The notes under the pieces are model-generated. The model saw only the letters and a list, made by a program, of their open reading frames with translations, searched no databases and was not told the DNA's origin. 15,389 nucleotides of DNA from Actinomycetales bacterium (GTDB lineage: Bacteria; Actinomycetota; Actinomycetes; Actinomycetales; Microbacteriaceae). The first letter of the stretch is position 1; every line of letters starts with the position of its first letter. The position numbers were made by a program, and so were the translations under genes. The stretch covers positions 1 to 15,389 of the forward strand of contig JAATFJ010000377.1 of NCBI GenBank assembly GCA_015655255.1, written 5' to 3'. This document shows positions 1,471 to 15,263 of this stretch, one piece after another.

Positions 1471-3182
1471 TAGCGGTAGTCGCGATCGAGGAACTGCCCC
1501 GAACGGTCCCCCGTCTCCACGCGGGCCGCCTCGCGCAGGCGCAGCTCCACGCGCCGGATCTTCCCGGAGATGGTCTTGGGGAGGTCGGGGACGAACTCGA
1601 GGATGCGCACCCACGCGTAGGCGGAGAGGCGTTCCCGGGCGAAGGCGTAGATGGCGCGCGCCGCGTCCTCGGGCGAGACCGCGGTGTCCTCGCGCAGGCA
1701 CACGTAGGCCTTGGGAACCGCGAGGCGGGTGGGGTCCGGGCTCGGCACGACCGCCGCTTCGGTGACGAGGTCGTGCTCCAGCAGCACTGACTCCAGCTCG
1801 AAGGGGGAGATCTTGTAGTCCGATGCCTTGAACACGTCGTCGTCGCGCCCCACATAGGTGAGGTAGCCGTCCGCGTCGCGTGTCGCGATGTCGCCGGTGT
1901 GGTGGTAACCGCCCTGTCGCACTTTCGCCGTGCGCTCCGGATCGTTGTAGTAGCCGGACATGAGACCGAGCGGCGCGCGGGAGAGGTCGAGCGCGATCTC
2001 GCCTTCGTCCGCCACCTCTTCGCCCGTTGCGGGGTCGAGGAGCACGACGGGGTAGCCGGGCAGCGGACGGCCCATCGATCCGTCCTTGATGACCTGGCCG
2101 GGAGAGTTGCCCACGCAGCACGTCATCTCCGTCTGCCCGAAGCCGTCGCGGATGGTCGCGCCCCAGGCCCGGCGCACCTGGCTGATGACCTCCGGGTTGA
2201 GGGGCTCACCCGCACCGAGCAGCTCGCGCGGCGGGCGGTGCAGCCGAGTGAGATCCGACTGGATGAGCATGCGCCACACCGTCGGCGGAGCGCAGAACGT
2301 GCTCACCTGATGGGCGTCCATGACCTGCATGAGCGTGTTCGCGTCGAAGCGCGCGTAGTTGTAGACGAACACCGTTGCCTGCGCGAGGAAGGGGGAGTAG
2401 AAGCTCGACCAGGCGTGCTTCCCCCAGCCGGGGGAGGAGATGTTGAGATGGACGTCGCCCGGTCGCACGCCCAGCCACCACATGGTGGAGAGGTGACCCA
2501 CGGGATAGGACACGTTCGAGTGCTCGACGAGCTTGGGGTGGCTCGTCGTTCCCGAGGTGAAGTAGAGCAACGCCGCATCGCCCGCGAGGGACGGGCCGTC
2601 GGGCGTGAACTCGGGGGATGCGTTCCGGGAGTCGGCGAAGTCGTGCCAGCCCGCGGGCGTCATCTCGCCGACCCCGATGCGCAGCACGGCTGCATCCGTC
2701 TCCTCCAGGCGCTCCTCGGCGGAGTCGAGGGCGATGACGGCCTTCGCCTCGCCGTGCCGCGCCCGGTAGGCGACGTCCGCGGCCGCGAGGAGCGTCGAGG
2801 TGGGGATCGCGACGGCCCCGAGCTTGGACAGCCCCAGCATGACCTCCCACAGCTCGATCGTGTTGTTCAGCATGACGATGACGTGGTCGCCGCGCCCGAT
2901 GCCGAGCCCTGCGAGCCAGTTCGCCACCTGGTCGGAACGGTCGGAGAGCTCCGCGTACGACCAGCTGTTCAGGGTGAGGTCAGCGTCGACGATCTGTACG
3001 GCGGGTCGATCCGGATGCTCACCCGCGACGACGTCGAACCACTCCAGCGCGAAGTTGAACTCGGCCAGCTCTGGCCAGCGGAAGCCTGCGCGCGCACCGT
3101 CGTAGTCGGTGGCATGGTCGAAGAGGAAGTCGCGCATCTCGCGAATCGCGGTGGTGGCGGCGGTTGCGGCGCGCTGCATCAT
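1470..3182 (-). CDS. AMP-forming acyl-CoA synthetase (medium-chain/ACSM-like)
   Basis: A 570-residue ANL-superfamily adenylating enzyme expected to activate a carboxylic acid with ATP and load it on CoA in the cytosol. Motifs in order: P-loop-like YFTSGTTSHPK (207-217), SSPGWGKHAWSS (249-260), FCAPPTVWRML (296-306), GFGQTE (347-352), HTGD (428-431), GRDDDVFKASDYKISPFELE (445-464) and PKTISGK with catalytic Lys541. The FCAPPTVWR and SPGWGKHAWSS blocks are typical of the medium-chain (ACSM) branch rather than acetyl-CoA synthetase; the true acid cannot be read from sequence. An upstream extension of the frame to 3410 exists, but the ATG pair at 3182/3179 has a GGAG 8 nt upstream and the expected N-terminus. 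It is divergent from the MATE gene and convergent with the CDF gene, so it is probably monocistronic. Confidence 0.9.
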   Translation of the reverse strand: MMQRAATAATTAIREMRDFLFDHATDYDGARAGFRWPELAEFNFALEWFDVVAGEHPDRPAVQIVDADLTLNSWSYAELSDRSDQVANWLAGLGIGRGDHVIVMLNNTIELWEVMLGLSKLGAVAIPTSTLLAAADVAYRARHGEAKAVIALDSAEERLEETDAAVLRIGVGEMTPAGWHDFADSRNASPEFTPDGPSLAGDAALLYFTSGTTSHPKLVEHSNVSYPVGHLSTMWWLGVRPGDVHLNISSPGWGKHAWSSFYSPFLAQATVFVYNYARFDANTLMQVMDAHQVSTFCAPPTVWRMLIQSDLTRLHRPPRELLGAGEPLNPEVISQVRRAWGATIRDGFGQTEMTCCVGNSPGQVIKDGSMGRPLPGYPVVLLDPATGEEVADEGEIALDLSRAPLGLMSGYYNDPERTAKVRQGGYHHTGDIATRDADGYLTYVGRDDDVFKASDYKISPFELESVLLEHDLVTEAAVVPSPDPTRLAVPKAYVCLREDTAVSPEDAARAIYAFARERLSAYAWVRILEFVPDLPKTISGKIRRVELRLREAARVETGDRSGQFLDRDYR

Positions 3183-3253
3183 GCTTCTGGCTCCGTTGCT
3201 CTGCGGATCGGGTGAGTCTCCATCCTCCCGCACTCTTCCTTCTTCCGGGTTAC

Positions 3254-3265
3254 CGAAACGATTCG
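3254..3265. promoter_or_regulatory. Inverted repeat in the synthetase/MATE divergent promoter region
   Basis: CGAA-ACGA-TTCG is a 4-bp inverted repeat with a 4-bp spacer in the 160-bp divergent gap. A -10-like TAGACT (3267-3272) follows it on the plus strand, about 70 nt before the MATE start. No good -35 was found. The operator role is inference. Confidence 0.3.
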
Positions 3266-3342
3266 ATAGACTGGTCGGGTGGTGCCGCCCGACGTCGGCA
3301 CCTTCTTCTGTTTCCCGCCCACTCGCTGTCCTGGAGCGCCGC

Positions 3343-4839
3343 ATGTCCACCGCACTCACCACGGGTCGTCCGTGGCGTGTCATCCTTCTTTTCTCGATCC
3401 CGCTGCTCATCGGGAACGTCGTGCAGCAGCTCTATCAGGTCATCGATGCGATCGTCGTCGGGCGGCACCTCGGCGTCACCTCGCTCGCCGCCGTCGGCGC
3501 GACGGGGAGCCTCATCTTCCTCCTCATCGGATTCGCCTGGGGGATGACGAGCGGCTTCGCGATCCCCACTGCTCAGGCCTTCGGCGCGCGGGATGAGGAG
3601 GGCGTGCGCCGATCCGTCGCGACGGGAACGATCCTCGCCGCCGTCGTGAGCATCCTCCTCACGATCGCCGGCCCACTCCTCGCCGAACCCTTCCTCGTGC
3701 TCCTGCAGACGCCGGCGTCCCTGTTGCCGGAGGCCGTCACCTTCACGCGCGTGACGTTCTTCGGGATCGCCGCGATGATGTTCTTCAACTACCTCGCGGC
3801 GATCATCCGTGCGATCGGCGACTCCCGCACGCCGCTCGTCTTCCTCACGATCTCCTGCCTCCTCAACGTGGGGCTCGTCCTCCTCTTCGTCGGCACCTTC
3901 GAGTGGGGTGTCGGCGGCGCCGCGCTCGCGACCGTCATCGCGCAGAGCGTGTCGGTGCTGCTGTGCCTCGTCTACATCCTCCGCCGCATCCCCGTGCTGC
4001 GCGTGGGCCGCGACGACTGGCACGTGGGCGGGCAGGATATCGCCGACCACCTCCGGCTCGGCCTCCCCATGGGTTTCCAGGCGTCGATCATCTCCATCGG
4101 CACGCTCGTCGTGCAGGTCGCACTCAACACCCTCGGCGCGGATGCCGTCGCCGCCTACACGACGGCGACGCGCGTGGACACCCTCGCGACGGCGCTCCTC
4201 GCCTCCCTGGGCCTCGCCGCATCGATGTACACGGCGCAGAACCTCGGCGGGCGGCGTCCCGACCGCATCCGCAAGGGGGCGAGGCAGGCAGTGGTCATGG
4301 CGATCGTCGTGGCGCTCCTGCTCGGCATGCTCCTCATCTCCTTTGGCGCACAGATGGTGCGCCTGTTCATCGGCGAGGGTTCCGATGAGGTCGTCGGCAT
4401 GGCGCACCTCATGCTCGTCATCAACGGCGCGACGTATTCGCTGCTCGGCGTGCTCTTCGTGCTGCGCGGCGTGCTGCAGGGACTGGGCAACGCCCTCATC
4501 CCCACCGTGACGGGAACGGTGGAGCTCGTCATGCGCGTGGCGGCAGCCCTTCTCTTCGGAGCGTTCTTCGGCTACGTCGGAGTGGTGATGAGCAACCCGC
4601 TCGCCTGGCTCGGCGCGATCGTGATCCTCATCCCCGCGTTCCTGCGCGCCGACCGGCGTCTCGCGGCGATGCCCGTCGATCCGGATGAGTTCACGCTCAC
4701 GACGCCCGTGCCGATCGTCGGTCCCGTGGACGGCTCCCGCGTCGTGGACATGGTCGTGACGCAGACGATCCCGCTCGTCGTGCCCGGCCCCGCGCGGCGG
4801 GGACGGGGGATCCGCGGGCGGTTCGTTTCGCGGCGGTAG
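3343..4839 (+). CDS. MATE-family multidrug/cation antiporter
   Basis: A 498-residue inner-membrane efflux pump expected to export drugs or metabolites using a H+ or Na+ gradient. It begins with the classic MATE N-terminus (residues about 9-45, including PWRVILLFSIPLLIGNVVQQ and then IDAIVVGRHLG). About twelve hydrophobic helices follow in two halves; the second MatE half starts near LGLPMGFQASIISIGTLVVQ. A charged, Pro/Arg-rich C-terminal tail of about 50 residues lies after the last helix (after FLRADRRLAAMP). Start: ATG 3343 with GGAG at 3333-3336, 6 nt spacing; the frame is open further upstream but that part overlaps the divergent promoter and has no family similarity. No partner gene identifies the substrate. 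The length is slightly above the usual 440-460 because of the tail. Confidence 0.92.
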   Translation: MSTALTTGRPWRVILLFSIPLLIGNVVQQLYQVIDAIVVGRHLGVTSLAAVGATGSLIFLLIGFAWGMTSGFAIPTAQAFGARDEEGVRRSVATGTILAAVVSILLTIAGPLLAEPFLVLLQTPASLLPEAVTFTRVTFFGIAAMMFFNYLAAIIRAIGDSRTPLVFLTISCLLNVGLVLLFVGTFEWGVGGAALATVIAQSVSVLLCLVYILRRIPVLRVGRDDWHVGGQDIADHLRLGLPMGFQASIISIGTLVVQVALNTLGADAVAAYTTATRVDTLATALLASLGLAASMYTAQNLGGRRPDRIRKGARQAVVMAIVVALLLGMLLISFGAQMVRLFIGEGSDEVVGMAHLMLVINGATYSLLGVLFVLRGVLQGLGNALIPTVTGTVELVMRVAAALLFGAFFGYVGVVMSNPLAWLGAIVILIPAFLRADRRLAAMPVDPDEFTLTTPVPIVGPVDGSRVVDMVVTQTIPLVVPGPARRGRGIRGRFVSRR

Positions 4840-4928: not shown

Positions 4929-5042
4929 TGTGGGCGGGCTGCGCGGAGATGCCGGAGGCGCGGGGCAGCTGGCGAGGTGTGCTGCCGCAGGTGAGGCATA
5001 CCGTTCTGCGTGAGAAACCACCCAGGACGTGGGGTTTCGTGC

Positions 5043-5068
5043 TGTGAATCCGCTGCCCAGGATGATGT
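5043..5068 (-). repeat. 26-bp inverted repeat, left copy
   Basis: The reverse complement of 5043-5068 is identical over 26 bp to 7173-7198. Weaker similarity continues on both sides; for example GTCCTGGGTG and GGTTTCTCACGC also occur next to the right copy. An imperfect hairpin (GAAACC at 5014-5019 with GGTTTC at 5033-5038) lies beside it. The two copies bracket the truncated lipoprotein gene and the IS in inverted orientation. Confidence 0.85.
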
Positions 5069-5284
5069 GTCATCAGCGAGTGGGGCGGACGCACAGGGCG
5101 AGGCGGACGGCACGGGCGGGGTTTTGTCGGGGCGCGTACCCGAGTTGACGGGGGCCGCAGGATCGGCGAACGGGCCTTCAGGTGCGCGCGCGGCCGTCCT
5201 ACCGTGGCCGGAAGCGGCAGGCGACGACGCCCCCGCAGGCACGCACGCCAACGCCGACGTGCGCCGACAGAACGGAGCCCGAAC

Positions 5285-6190
5285 GTGAACCCTTCCGAGC
5301 ACAGCACCCGCGGTGTCCTCTCCCGCCGGTTCGTCCTCCCCGCCTCCGCCCTGGCATCCGTGCTCCTCCTCGCCTCCTGTGGCGGCGGGGGTACCTCCAG
5401 CGCCGGAGGCGAGGAGGGGTCCGCGGAGGCTTCCTCCGACTCTGCGGAATGCGGCACCGTCCCCACTGTGGAGCCCAACGACCCCGACGGCCTCCTGGAC
5501 GGCCTCTCCGAGGACATCCAGACCGCTTTCAACGGCTGGCCTGACCTCATCGAGGCGAGCGCCTGGGCCGACCTGGAGTCGCAGGTCGCCGACGGACCGA
5601 TCACGGTGGGCTACCTGCAGCAGGACTCCGGGAGCCCCGCCGCCGCCGCGCTGCGGGAGGAGATCGAGCGTCTCTTCGAGGAGTCGAAGGCCGCGGGGGA
5701 GGTTGCCGCCCTCATCATCGAGACCCCCGGCGGCACGGGCGGCGATGTCACGGCCGCCGATCAGGTCCGCTCCTACGAGCAGCTCGTTAGCAAAGGCGCC
5801 GACATCATCATCGCCCAGCCGCTCTCCGGCGAGGCGCTCGTAGCCGCCGTGAACAGCGCGGGGGAGAAGGGCGTCCCCACGGTGAGCTTCACGGGCTACA
5901 TCGCCTCGCCCTACGCGCTCAACATCACGCCCAATCCCTTCGACGCCGTCGCGCAGGCCGTCGCGCGGGGTGTGGAGCTCATCGGCGGCGAGGGCAACGC
6001 CCTCATCGTCCAGGGGATCGAGGGGATGACCGTCAACACCTCCTCCGTCGCGGCGGCGGAGCAGGTGCTCGCCTACTGCCCCGACATCACCGTGGTGGGG
6101 AAGCCCGCGGGGAGCTTCAACGACCCCGGCGCGAAATCGGCCGTCGTCACCTTCCTCGCGTCCCACCCCGAGCAGATCGACCTCGTCTAG
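5285..6190 (+). pseudogene. Sugar-type ABC substrate-binding lipoprotein, 3'-truncated at the IS junction
   Basis: A 301-residue fragment of a ribose/RbsB-type (Peripla_BP_4-like) binding protein. It has a lipoprotein signal with a twin-Arg-like SRRFVL (13-18) and lipobox LLLASC with Cys32, a Gly/Ser/Glu-rich linker, then the binding fold: a first-strand region ITVGYLQQDSGSP, later SKGADIIIAQPLSGEALVAA, GVPTVSFTGY, and NALIVQGIEGM. It ends abruptly at SHPEQIDLV-stop, where homologues continue into the remainder of the second lobe. The TAG (6188-6190) sits exactly on the left IS boundary. No sugar permease or ATPase is nearby, so it is an orphan and probably non-functional. Start: GTG 5285 with GGAG 7 nt upstream (5274-5277); an earlier in-frame ATG at 5204 adds an Arg-rich stretch unlike a signal peptide. 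Confidence 0.8.
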
Positions 6191-6852
6191 GGCGTGTCTC
6201 CCAATAGGCGTGTCCAGGTGAGGATCGCGCAGAGGGTGACGCCTGCGCGGTAGGTGATCGCGAATTTGTCGAACCGTGTCGCGATGCCGCGCCACTGCTT
6301 GGCGAGAGCGAAGAACCGCTCGACGACGTTGCGGCCCTTGTAGGCGTCGGCGTCGAGCCCGGGTGGCCTGCCTCCCTTGCTGCCGCGTCGTTTCCGGGCG
6401 GCGGCCTGGTCACGCTTGTCCGGAATGACGGCCTTGATGCCGCGTCGGCGCAGTTCGGTGCGGATGACCCCTGTCGCGTAGGCGCGGTCCGCGAGCACGG
6501 CATCGGGTCGGGTCCGTGGCCGCCCTGGGCCGAGCCGGGGAACGTGGATCTCGCCCAGCACTTCTGCGAGCATCGCGCCGTCGTTGCGCTGGCCACCGGT
6601 AACGATCATCGCCAGCGGCCTGCCGTGCCCGTCGACGGCATGGTGGATCTTCGTGGTCAGGCCACCGCGGGAGCGGCCGATGCCGTGCCCAGGTGGTTCA
6701 ATCTCGTGCCAGGGCAGGTTCTTGTGATTCGATCCCGCCCCCTGTGTCCTGCTCGGGGCGGGTGGTGTTCGTCGCGTGCTGGTGTGCCCGCGCGATCGTC
6801 GCATCGATCGATACCGCCCAGTCGATCTTCCCAGCCGCATCGGCCTCGGCAA
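6187..6852 (-). CDS. IS5-family transposase, orfB (catalytic C-terminal part)
   Basis: The recognisable region begins near HGIGRSRGGLTTKIH and runs through GQRNDGAMLAEVL, the second Asp in LADRAYATG, IPDKRDQAA and the Glu in KGRNVVERFFALAKQWRGIA. It ends at LLGDTP. The first ~45 residues of this open frame are an out-of-frame shadow of orfA; a separate start is unlikely, and expression by ribosomal frameshifting is expected. A run of five G (minus strand, 6742-6738) in the overlap is a possible slip site. The TAG stop uses the target bases CTA at 6187-6189, outside the IS itself. Confidence 0.85.
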   Translation of the reverse strand: MPRPMRLGRSTGRYRSMRRSRGHTSTRRTPPAPSRTQGAGSNHKNLPWHEIEPPGHGIGRSRGGLTTKIHHAVDGHGRPLAMIVTGGQRNDGAMLAEVLGEIHVPRLGPGRPRTRPDAVLADRAYATGVIRTELRRRGIKAVIPDKRDQAAARKRRGSKGGRPPGLDADAYKGRNVVERFFALAKQWRGIATRFDKFAITYRAGVTLCAILTWTRLLGDTP

Positions 6853-7164
6853 GGATCCGCGTCAACACCCGATCCCACGTGCCGTCCCCGGCATACCGGC
6901 GATGCCGCTTCCACACCGTCTGCCACGGCCCGAACTGCTCGCGAGGCAGATCACGCCACGGGATCCCGGTCCGGAACCGGTAGGCGATGCCCTCCACGAT
7001 CCGCCGGTTGTCGCCGAACGGGTGCCCCCGCCGCCCCCGATTCGAGGGCAGCAACGGCTCGATCCGCTCCCACTGCTCATCCGTGAACACCCGATACCGC
7101 GAACCCGTCGACCTCACCCCACCAGACTGCCGCGAACCCCTTCACCCATATGGGAGACACGCCC
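6190..7164 (-). mobile_element. IS5-family insertion sequence (IS427-like), 975 bp
   Basis: Perfect 14-bp terminal inverted repeats GGGCGTGTCTCCCA at 6190-6203 and, reversed, at 7151-7164. Both ends are flanked by TA (6188-6189 and 7165-7166) within CTAG, matching the TA/CTAG target preference of this group. It carries a two-frame DDE transposase on the minus strand (orfA 6698-7117, orfB 6187-6852). The intact ends and frames suggest a recent insertion. Subgroup assignment is from size, layout and target, not from a database search. Confidence 0.9.
6698..7117 (-). CDS. IS5-family transposase, orfA (N-terminal part)
   Basis: 139 residues from a GTG start. It contains the DUF4096-type N-terminal region (FTDEQWERIEPLLP, about residues 10-24, then GIAYRFRTGIPWRDLP and FGPWQTVWKRHRRY) and the first catalytic Asp in SIDATIARAHQHA. 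The frame then diverges into a stretch unlike the family (ending ALARD). The rest of the catalytic domain is in orfB, so a frameshift product is the likely active transposase. orfB lies one nucleotide further 3' in phase (+1, or -2). Confidence 0.88.
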   Translation of the reverse strand: MRSTGSRYRVFTDEQWERIEPLLPSNRGRRGHPFGDNRRIVEGIAYRFRTGIPWRDLPREQFGPWQTVWKRHRRYAGDGTWDRVLTRILAEADAAGKIDWAVSIDATIARAHQHATNTTRPEQDTGGGIESQEPALARD

Positions 7165-7172
7165 TAGCTGAG

Positions 7173-7198
7173 ACATCATCCTGGGCAGCGGATTCACA
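7173..7198 (+). repeat. 26-bp inverted repeat, right copy, beside the IS
   Basis: Identical to the reverse complement of 5043-5068 and starting 9 bp outside the right IS end. An extra partial copy (CAGCGGATTCAC, 7199-7210) follows directly, then a hairpin CACCC-GTCCT-GGGTG (7208-7222) and GGTTTCTCACGC further on, echoing the left copy. No gene is seen between the IS and 7361. Confidence 0.85.
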
Positions 7199-7360
7199 CA
7201 GCGGATTCACCCGTCCTGGGTGTGGTGCTTCGTGTGTTCGCTGGTGGTTTCTCACGCCGAATGTGTCGGTTCACGCGGGGAGTGGTTTCTCGTCACACGA
7301 GTACCCCGCGTCGGCCACAGATTGGTCTCATCCCCTCTCCGTCTCTCCCCCGGAGGTCTC

Positions 7361-13176: not shown

Positions 13177-13339
13177 CTCGGCTTCCGTGGCTAGATCTCG
13201 CGGCCGAATGGTTGACACTCGGGGCGCCCCGCGGTGCGACGGGCGTACCGTCACGGTGAGGGGACAGAGGCGAGGGGAACCGGCTGCCCCGGCGGGCCGA
13301 GCCCGGTTCCTCTCGGCGGAGCCCCGCCGCCCTCGACCG

Positions 13340-13460
13340 TTCTGCAGGACTCCCGTGTCGTTCTGCAGAAGCAGATTTCCTCCCCGGCCTCCGGCGACGG
13401 CGTGTCGCCGTCGCGCAGACCGTTGCTCCTGCAGAACGGCGGGGTTCTCCTGCAGAACGG
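13340..13460. repeat. Palindromic intergenic element, copy A (four phased CTGCAG motifs and a hairpin)
   Basis: Located in the 373-bp gap between the SIP promoter and the SDR stop, where I see no gene. Order: TTCTGCAGGA (13340), TTCTGCAGAA (13361), hairpin stem GCGACGGCG (13394-13402) with loop TGT and CGCCGTCGC (13406-13414), TCCTGCAGAA (13427), TCCTGCAGAA (13448). The motifs in each arm are 21 bp apart, and the right arm is the reverse complement of the left in layout. A second copy is at 15143-15263. The gap also has a perfect 12-bp palindrome CGGGGCGCCCCG (13220-13231). Confidence 0.9.
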
Positions 13461-13484
13461 CAAGGAGCGCGTCGAGACTCCTGT

Positions 13485-14489
13485 CTACTGCACCGACCAG
13501 CCTCCGTCGGAGGGGAGGATGACGCCGTTGATGTTCACGCCGTCGTCGGAGAGCAGGAAGGTGAGGGAGGCGGCGAGCTGCTCTGCCGTTGCGAGCGTGG
13601 GGATCTGGCTCTGGAAGGGCTGGAGCTTCGCCGACCCCGCCTCCGAGACGTGCGGCGGGAAGGGGATGCCCGTCGCAACGCCGCCGGGGGCGACGGCGTT
13701 GACGCGGATACCCTGCGATCCGTACATGAACGCCGCCGACTTCGTGAGGCCCACGACGGCATGCTTGGACGTCGTGTACGCGTTCCCGGAGGCGTTGCCG
13801 CGCAGGCCCGCCTCGCTCGCGACGTTGACGATCGATCCCCGTCCCGCGGCGATCATGGCGGGGAGTGCCGCGCGCGTGAGCTTGAAGGTGCCCGTGAGGT
13901 TCACGCCGATGACCCGCTCCCACATGGCGTCCGTCGTCTCGTGCAGGGGCGAGAAGTCGTCGTTGATGCCCGCGACGTTCGCGAGGGCGTCGATGCGCTC
14001 GCCCGCGGCGGCGATGATCGCGTCGACGGAGTCCTGCTGCGTGATGTCTCCCGTGACCGTGATGATCTCGGCATCGGGGAGGGAGGCGGCGAACTCCGCG
14101 AGGCGGTCGGCGGAGACGTCGACCGCGACGACGCGGCCTCCTTCGCGCGCGATGCGCGAGGCCGTTGCGCGCCCGATCCCGGACGCGGCGCCTGTGACGA
14201 TGACAGTCTTGCCCGAGAAGCGGCCGGGTGCCGTCGCCTCCTGCCAGATCCCCGTCTCCTCCTCTTCGGGAGCGACACCATCGTTGGCCTGCAGCACGAG
14301 GCCGTCGATGACGGACTGGGGGAGCTGGCCCTGGCTCAGTGCGACGAGCTGCTGCAGCGGGAGCCCGCGTGCGGGGGCGAGGGACTCGGCGGATCCGCCG
14401 GACTGTGCGAGCAGCCCGGTGAGAAGGGGGCCTCCGACGGGGCTGTCGAGCCAGTCTCCGATGGGGGAATTCGCGGTGAGGGCGGTCAT
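13485..14489 (-). CDS. Short-chain dehydrogenase/reductase with an extra N-terminal helical domain
   Basis: 334 residues, about 85 longer than a classical SDR. The C-terminal part (from about 88) is a complete oxidoreductase: TGAASGIG (99-106) for cofactor, acidic VDV with Asp124 favouring NAD(H), NVAG (171-174), catalytic Ser225, Tyr238 and Lys242 (YTTSK), and VAPGGVATG after it. The N-terminal part has two amphipathic stretches (SPIGDWLDSPVGGPLLTGLL, 8-27, and LPLQQLVALSQGQLPQSVID, 43-62) followed by an acidic linker (GVAPEEEETG). This resembles the small helical domain I recall at the C-terminus of some actinobacterial GH3 glycosidases. The substrate is unknown. The start ATG has GGAAAGG 6 nt upstream. 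It diverges from the MarR gene over an inverted repeat, so it is a likely target of that regulator. Confidence 0.88.
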   Translation of the reverse strand: MTALTANSPIGDWLDSPVGGPLLTGLLAQSGGSAESLAPARGLPLQQLVALSQGQLPQSVIDGLVLQANDGVAPEEEETGIWQEATAPGRFSGKTVIVTGAASGIGRATASRIAREGGRVVAVDVSADRLAEFAASLPDAEIITVTGDITQQDSVDAIIAAAGERIDALANVAGINDDFSPLHETTDAMWERVIGVNLTGTFKLTRAALPAMIAAGRGSIVNVASEAGLRGNASGNAYTTSKHAVVGLTKSAAFMYGSQGIRVNAVAPGGVATGIPFPPHVSEAGSAKLQPFQSQIPTLATAEQLAASLTFLLSDDGVNINGVILPSDGGWSVQ

Positions 14490-14553
14490 GTCCTGCCTTT
14501 CCAGGGTGCGGGCTATCGAAAGGCGACGGGGTGGCCACGTCGCCCAAAAAAGG

Positions 14554-14568
14554 TTAGCTCTCGGCTAA
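14554..14568. promoter_or_regulatory. Inverted-repeat operator between SDR and MarR genes
   Basis: TTAGC-TCTCG-GCTAA is a perfect 5-bp inverted repeat with a 5-bp spacer (6 of 7 bp if extended), placed in the 122-bp divergent gap. Its position and symmetry suit a MarR dimer controlling both genes. The left half AGGTTAGC also looks like half of an iron box, but the right half does not complete it. Confidence 0.5.
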
Positions 14569-14611
14569 GCAGTTTGGCCGGGCTTTTCCTGTGAACCAGT
14601 ACCGTGGAGGG

Positions 14612-15073
14612 ATGGATGCCGCGGACTCCCGAACGGAGGTGCAAGGCCGGATCGAGGCGCTGACCCTCGCGATCACCGTGCGCTCGCTGCCCTACATCGT
14701 CGGGTCGCTCATGAAGACGCGACTCACGGTCCCCCAGTTCAAGGTGCTCGCCTCCCTCGCGATAGGCGAGGAGGATACGCCGAGCGGGCTCTCGCGGAGC
14801 CTCTCCGTCACGCTCGCGACGATGTCCAAGACCGTCGATCGCCTCGTCGCGCAGGACCTCGTCGTCCGCATCGCCGACCCGGAGGATCGTCGGGTTCGAC
14901 GCCTGCGGCTCACGTCGCTGGGACGTTCGGTTGTCGAGGAGGTCATGGCGCCGCGTCCGGAACTCGGCCCGCAGATGCTCGCGCGCCTCTCGCTCGAGGA
15001 GCTCGCGTCTCTCGAGGTCGGCCTCGGCGCGCTCAGCCGCGAACTCCACACCCTCGCCGCGCCCTCCCTCTAG
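14612..15073 (+). CDS. MarR-family transcriptional regulator
   Basis: 153 residues with the MarR winged-helix layout: a dimer helix (ALTLAITVRSLPYIVGSL), helix-turn-helix (TVPQFKVLASLAIGEEDTPS then SLSVTLATMSKTVDRLVAQD), wing DPEDRRVRRLRLTSLG and C-terminal dimer helices (LSLEELASLEVGLGALSREL). It has no cysteine at all, so it cannot sense peroxide like the Cys-based OhrR although an ohr gene lies next to it in convergent orientation. More likely it responds to a small-molecule ligand and represses itself and the divergent SDR gene. Start: ATG 14612; GGAGG is only 1 nt upstream, unusually close. A GTG at 14591 in the same frame adds 7 residues and has no ribosome site; it could serve a leaderless mRNA. 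Confidence 0.85.
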   Translation: MDAADSRTEVQGRIEALTLAITVRSLPYIVGSLMKTRLTVPQFKVLASLAIGEEDTPSGLSRSLSVTLATMSKTVDRLVAQDLVVRIADPEDRRVRRLRLTSLGRSVVEEVMAPRPELGPQMLARLSLEELASLEVGLGALSRELHTLAAPSL

Positions 15074-15142
15074 CGCGGGTGCGCCGTGGTGCGCGGCCCC
15101 TCCCCTCCGGTGAACCGGTAGTCCCGCCCTCCGCCCCGACCT

Positions 15143-15263
15143 TTCTGCAGGACGGCCGTGTCGTTCTGCAGGAGCGGATTCCTTCACCGGCTTCCGGCGG
15201 CGACGTGTCGCCGCCGCGCGGGACCGTTGCTCCTGCAGAACGGCGGTGTGCTCCTGCAGAACG
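15143..15263. repeat. Palindromic intergenic element, copy B
   Basis: Located between the convergent ends of the MarR and ohr genes. Order: TTCTGCAGGA (15143), TTCTGCAGGA (15164), hairpin stem CGGCGGCGAC (15195-15204), loop GT, GTCGCCGCCG (15207-15216), TCCTGCAGAA (15231), TCCTGCAGAA (15252). Same length as copy A, roughly 80-85% identical by eye with one 1-nt shift, and the same 21-bp spacings. Confidence 0.9.

Follow-up and report, generated by a model that had tools for sequence, protein, structure and literature searches.

The 15,389-nucleotide stretch analysed here at its full length (the window) is contig JAATFJ010000377.1 of assembly GCA_015655255.1, from a member of the Microbacteriaceae, and it carries two short elements in which a pair of tandem units faces an inverted pair. 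We take these two copies, on balance, to be solo members of the repeat family of a two-part mobile system run by a nuclease. From their sequences and those of their relatives we infer a system like that of REPINs and the REP-associated tyrosine transposases (RAYTs; REP, repetitive extragenic palindromic), run by an unrelated nuclease and pointing to a kind of small mobile DNA system so far unnoticed. Computed directly were the repeat family with its layout and its gene association, the agreement between motif class and nuclease clade that holds for most classes, the conserved residues and one presence/absence of a composite.

The first part of the proposed system is the element, consisting of short tandem arrays set head to head at a preferred inner spacing, each unit of which would be a binding site. 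The second is a gene beside or between copies of its own element, whose product appears to join an AbiEi-like winged-helix DNA-binding protein to a nuclease of EDxHD/Vsr-like (DUF559) type. Binding, cutting and a nuclease that would drive dispersal are what the model adds to the computed results: the AbiEi-like part would bind the units, the nuclease would cut at or within the element, and repair of the break would copy or recombine elements. As an outcome composites (element-gene-element) would insert, solo elements would spread to gene ends and, in some classes, flanking copies would become nearly identical. In Streptococcus agalactiae, AbiEi monomers cooperate in binding inverted repeats of 23 bp; a Mycobacterium tuberculosis relative binds with negative cooperativity, and the homing endonuclease I-Bth0305I dimerises on a long site. 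Given the inverted-repeat binding of AbiEi and the dimerisation of I-Bth0305I, a fusion protein encoded beside head-to-head arrays would fit a bind-and-cut model.

A dispersed family of head-to-head arrays

The first-pass annotation of the window described two elements of the same architecture, and this description holds with slightly refined spans (Table 1). The window has nine matches to TTCTGCAG, a number to be compared with 0.23 expected and attained by 0 of 200 shuffles, and every one of them lies inside an element; each core has one or two mismatches to GTTSTGCAGGG. The copies are 85% identical over 86 nt and 82% over 76 nt, with spacers of 56-57 nt between the forward and inverted unit pairs. 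The same annotation proposed a dispersed intergenic repeat of REP- or BIME-like layout (bacterial interspersed mosaic elements), an idea that depended on more than two copies existing genome-wide; it stands because relatives hold many.

A scan of genome contigs returned six stretches, three of them in Microbacterium sp. USTB-Y (G001), where the family is seen as arrays, one in the metagenome-assembled genome SZAS-7 and two elsewhere (L004, L008). The family (class A) comprises arrays of 1-10 units with the core GTTSTGCAGGR, placed head to head at a preferred inner distance, and is patchy in the Microbacteriaceae. Exact unit pairs were found in 5 of 295 genomes of the genus (32 matches in G001, 15 in G267, 13 in G250 and one each in G112 and G119; control 0), and a stricter pattern in 3 of 398 genomes of the family (G001, G473, G595; control 0). 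Facing inner pairs are present in six of the seven element-bearing genomes, all but G112, and inverted doublets are dispersed in the intergenic space of a single genome, as in REPIN-RAYT systems. A distant search of a plasmid collection with copy 1 gave no match, and matches in two viral contigs (L001, L002) are AT-rich TTTCTGCAGAAA repeats, some 21-bp spaced, which by eye are unlike the family and are probably unrelated. A second viral scan returned six further hits.

Architecture was taken from 52 elements, the window's two included; 10 of the 57 fetched loci gave none under the script's mismatch and spacing limits. Inner distances are 66-69 in 39 elements, 89-91 in nine, 75-76 in three and 97 in one, and it is the clustering rather than the range that counts, the script having admitted only 60-76 and 82-98. 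Elements with more units in one arm tend to have more in the other (rho 0.85, orthologs counted more than once). The 21-bp spacing had been read as two helical turns, suiting a protein on one DNA face. All four within-arm steps in the window are indeed 21 bp, but the spacing is not strict in the wider family (120 of 165 steps are 21 bp, 23 are 18, 18 are 20 and 4 are 22), and a general rule of helical phasing was given up in view of the 18-bp steps in class A, common in one genome (G473, which holds most of the 23), and steps of 19 and 30-32 bp in other classes. The suggestion of a protein-contacted site is probably right: the cores look like DNA-binding sites, and we read them as bound by protein. 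Across related species orthologous elements keep the cores, while spacers and unit numbers vary.

The sequence CGTTSTGCAGGR occurs 77 times in G001, largely within elements among the matches listed, and 7-10 times in G112, G119 and G473, these low counts being due in part to the base before the units, which is often not C. The idea of a DNA-uptake sequence, with many solitary sites, was dropped, as the listed G001 matches to CGTTSTGCAGGR lie mostly in elements and five array-less genomes have 3-14.

Two variants of the class A element were also observed. At three separate places in G119 (L140, L146, L277), one of them adjoining a nuclease gene, copies of about 78 bp have GGAAWAA-type inner ends and a common centre, CAGAAAACCCCWGGTCAG (at most three substitutions). 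In G112 (L173, ~2984-3400) an element without its right half is followed by a small cupin-like gene (named by eye); it was probably broken by insertion, since the right half is gone and the small gene has no counterpart there in G001 and G267.

A nuclease gene beside the arrays

One gene in G001 is flanked by two class A elements, whose units themselves encode its last codons. In Pfam the 305-aa product scores above the cut-off for DUF559 and just under it for AbiEi_4; its matches to several PADLOC AbiEi models are weak. Both a Vsr-like EDxHD catalytic fold and an AbiEi fold were recognised, the best fold match of the nuclease part being I-Bth0305I, and the active-site-type residues E198, D225, D237, H242, D251 and D255 are kept in 89-90 of 90 proteins (conservation among these proteins, not a residue-by-residue mapping onto I-Bth0305I). 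A search of 12 genomes found homologs in 11; with a threshold of E 1e-60 they occur in 36 of 99 genomes of the genus, and with one of E 1e-25 in 6 of 118 genomes of the class. Class A elements adjoin the nuclease gene in five relatives' genomes. The gene has them to either side in G001, G267 (88% identical) and G595 and to a single side in G473; the G119 homolog lies downstream of a cluster of class A copies with a common spacer centre. A Pfam scan of two element-adjacent proteins gave DUF559, AbiEi_4 (below cut-off) and MTES_1575 and no Y1 family, RAYTs elsewhere in the genomes not having been searched for. The class A nuclease genes of G001 (L164) and G473 (L129) both lie near a dapA-like gene (by eye) in different gaps, so the region could be an ancestral location or a favoured one.

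Presence and absence can be compared at a few sites. A 1.33-1.37-kb composite lies between two convergent genes in G001 and G267, where six relatives with both flanks have 9-63 bp (seven further loci showed one flank only). G250 has a lone CGTTCTGCAGAACG at the empty composite site; because facing class A units contain the palindrome CTGCAG, ends left by a cut would be able to rejoin, a possible origin of this lone sequence. At the site of one solo element the flanks are 72 bp apart in G030, touching in G023 and ~1.1 kb apart in G022 (both flanks were found in 3 of 11 relatives' loci). Past the SDR gene next to window copy 1, no class A unit (at most one mismatch) was found within 400 bp in 14 of 14 best-matching relatives' loci.

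The association extends to other nuclease genes of the family, which are flanked by inverted arrays of different motifs. Strict quartets occur in 28 of 112 flanking windows and 19 of 56 loci, as against 0 of 336 shuffles and 10 of 335 other windows (the window controls, 8/336 and 10/335, include true elements of class A and other families). In the extended set they occur in 32 of 181 windows and 24 of 91 loci, on both sides in eight, with 31 of 180 windows near the nuclease positive and 2 of 180 far from it. Bracketing direct repeats were found at 43 of 89 nuclease genes, at 0 of 87 mismatched loci and at 0 of 132 other genes (Fisher p 4e-21; the 132 come from the seven element-bearing genomes only). 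In 5 of the 15 loci tested the flanking copies share 90% identity or more over 74-99 bp, and in class A loci the flanking elements have units, not spacers, in common. Among class-level loci 2 of 9 pass the direct-repeat threshold (L300, 69% over 99; L303, 85% over 71).

Class B (CACGATCNGCAC, step 19) was found only in G001, G112, G250 and G267 of 15 genomes searched (control 0), each of which carries a class B-flanked nuclease. All 20 fetched class B places, which had been chosen by one direct pair, have inverted partners at an inner distance of 30 or 31 (two mismatches allowed). A tree built from 91 proteins places each of the classes B, C, D and J in a single supported group, and its 13 labels can be explained by 12 changes, the fewest possible (mean of 16.9 on shuffling, with 0 of 200 shuffles this low). 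These labels cover 23 of the 91 rows and come from the array sequences, with L175, L277 and L202 labelled by class A-like units rather than a quartet, L249 and L251 grouped together by eye, and no label given to the quartets of L181, L203 and L220. A class B element also lies at the 3′ end of the SDR ortholog in G001 (G001:C9 ~18490-18640, L293), the same gene end thus being hit by two families. G001 holds further inverted-array families with steps of 19-20, namely CGAGACCGA, TGCGACGAT and CGACGCCCC (L152 ~350 and 1605, L157 ~988, L158 ~4501).

In its general form the proposal is a class of bacterial mobile systems in which a fusion of AbiEi and a homing endonuclease spreads its own head-to-head arrays and keeps them alike, with motif, step and inner spacing particular to each clade. 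Leaving solo elements at gene ends, such systems would work much as REPIN-RAYT does, though with an unrelated enzyme; the chances of this fall, in our estimate, a little short of even. If true, it would supply the common but unexplained AbiEi-like plus DUF559 architecture with both a function and a target, and REP-like repeat populations would have arisen with more than one kind of enzyme. It would also provide many natural, mutually different pairs of nuclease and target, from which a recognition code could be read directly.

Opposing evidence and alternative explanations

Several observations weigh against a nuclease-run mobile system. No nuclease homolog was found within the window, so the link between its elements and the nuclease is made through relatives, by shared motif, spacing and layout. 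G250 has about eight class A places and G112 one broken element, and no class A elements were seen at the nuclease homologs found there. Same-class nuclease loci are mostly orthologous between species, as are many element loci; movement or turnover must then be slow, and the counts are not independent. No movement event was observed, and no target-site duplication is evident in the empty-site and composite sequences compared, the boundaries of which have diverged. Single-site counts exceed an imperfect reversed control in four of five array-less genomes (3-14 vs 0-5). Direct repeats are lacking at 46 of 89 nuclease loci and strict quartets at 67 of 91. The five class A loci (L174, L175, L182, L183, L277) do not belong to the 43 with direct repeats; the flanking elements of G001 and G267 match only over 35-37 bp, in inverted sense. 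Class A also occupies three places in the tree (3 changes), which may reflect one gain and two losses.

The elements could instead be host regulatory or chromosome-organising sites, through which an AbiEi-nuclease domesticated as a regulator (or defence regulator) acts on 3′ ends, on the insulation of genes or on nucleoid shape, the elements now being immobile. This would suit the cores kept at orthologous loci, the orthology of same-class nuclease loci, the small number of sites per genome, their spread over the chromosome in G473 and the fact that AbiEi proteins are autoregulators. It sits poorly with the patchy presence of the elements, the composite absent from six relatives, the near-identical flanking copies, the conserved nuclease residues and the spacer centre common to three places in G119, and we regard it as unlikely.

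The first-pass annotation also raised a covarying hairpin and a structured 3′ RNA element. Read in this way, or as a bidirectional terminator, the inverted arms would form a long mRNA hairpin, which seems improbable to us. As first described, both window copies are at gene 3′ ends, copy 1 27 bp past the SDR stop and copy 2 69 bp past the MarR-like stop, and proximity to stop codons agrees with a role in RNA. So does depletion from divergent gaps (6/50 vs 44/122, p 0.0015), elements lying in 29 tandem, 15 convergent, 6 divergent and 2 other gaps and other gaps of at least 80 bp being 55 tandem, 23 convergent and 44 divergent. Both window copies do have a paired central stem that differs in sequence between them, and both are predicted to fold strongly, with z of -5.5 to -8.9 relative to shuffles over the two strands, because the arms are inverted. 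However, the central hairpin is not conserved across the family: the spacers of the 52 elements fold like shuffles (mean z -0.22 and -0.28), and those of the window copies beat shuffles on one strand (-2.33). The G473 spacers, whose folding exceeds that of shuffles to a modest degree (mean z -1.46 and -0.89, n=13), are in favour of an RNA. Covariation failed, as the variable C/G position agrees in 67 of 107 facing units against 67.4 expected within genomes; by eye the variable parts of facing units are unpaired, and across the 52 elements no compensatory base-pair change, the test for a structured cis RNA or terminator, was found. Neither an Rfam scan at gathering scores nor a tRNA scan of the window gave a match.

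Least probable of all, if only slightly, is a classic REP/BIME or a miniature inverted-repeat transposable element (MITE) moved by a standard transposase elsewhere (HUH/Y1 RAYT or DDE), with the nuclease genes merely in the same intergenic niches: the elements are short, intergenic, dispersed inverted doublets near gene ends, but common niches do not explain the bracketing of 43 of 89 nuclease genes (0 of 132 others) or the matching of motif to clade, and the compared sites have no evident target-site duplication, a genome-wide transposase search not having been made.

The window and its relation to known systems

Coordinates are given in Table 1, in which genes were called for context by a simple script. 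The SDR protein shares 84% identity with one named from M. aurum, and judging by that similarity the window host is Microbacterium-like. The window also contains a probable insertion sequence (5019-7222) with inverted ends at 6182-6203 and 7151-7172 and transposase-like minus-strand frames (named by eye), nested within a larger inverted pair (5019-5072 and 7169-7222).

Table 1. Elements and adjoining genes in the window
Feature	Position	Strand	Remarks
Solo element, copy 1	13339..13458		forward (+) units start at 13339, 13360; reverse (-) units at 13427, 13448; inner distance 67
Left arm, copy 1	13337..13373	+	two units, 21-bp step; 81% complementary to 13424-13460 (pair I3)
Spacer, copy 1	13371..13426		GCGACGGCG/CGCCGTCGC stem; stems of this kind are not general in the family
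Right arm, copy 1	13424..13460	-	two inverted units, 21-bp step; pair I3
SDR-family oxidoreductase gene	13485..14489	-	3′ end abuts copy 1; places the host near Microbacterium
MarR-like regulator gene	14591..15073	+	3′ end faces copy 2; named by eye
Solo element, copy 2	15142..15262		forward (+) units start at 15142, 15163; reverse (-) units at 15231, 15252; inner distance 68
Left arm, copy 2	15143..15175	+	79% complementary to 15229-15261 (pair I8)
Spacer, copy 2	15174..15230		between the 15163 and 15231 units
Right arm, copy 2	15229..15261	-	pair I8

Judged by titles and the openings of abstracts, the literature within reach, which excludes most subscription papers, does not link DUF559 to repeats. 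Like MITEs and solo-LTR-like remnants (LTR, long terminal repeat), the family has solo copies and composites with flanking copies (direct in 43 of 89 loci); it differs from them in that no target-site duplication was seen, and no transposase was found beside the copies examined, where no profile search for one was made. It differs from AbiE type IV toxin-antitoxin systems in the added C-terminal nuclease and in having sites in dispersed arrays rather than at its own promoter only, and no AbiEii nucleotidyltransferase toxin partner was recognised by eye, no profile search having been made, among the neighbours of element-adjacent genes. Compared with I-Bth0305I and Vsr, the nuclease is not seen in an intron or intein, is flanked by arrays and fused to an AbiEi-like module, and its cleavage is predicted only.

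The closest likeness is to REPIN-RAYT. RAYT systems have non-autonomous short inverted extragenic doublets matched to a nearby enzyme gene, which is kept vertically (PMC3116915, PMC8049555). The family described here likewise has dispersed inverted doublets matched to a particular adjoining enzyme gene that is kept vertically. Its units form tandem arrays with 18-32-bp steps, however, and the folding of the spacer is not conserved, so that arms and spacer are not kept as a hairpin. Copies number some tens, as against the 69-235 REPINs per genome given for E. coli (PMC8049555). Above all, the enzyme appears to be a Vsr/EDxHD-type nuclease with an AbiEi-like part and not a tyrosine (HUH) transposase, and, the adjoining enzyme being of another superfamily, this is not a RAYT system.
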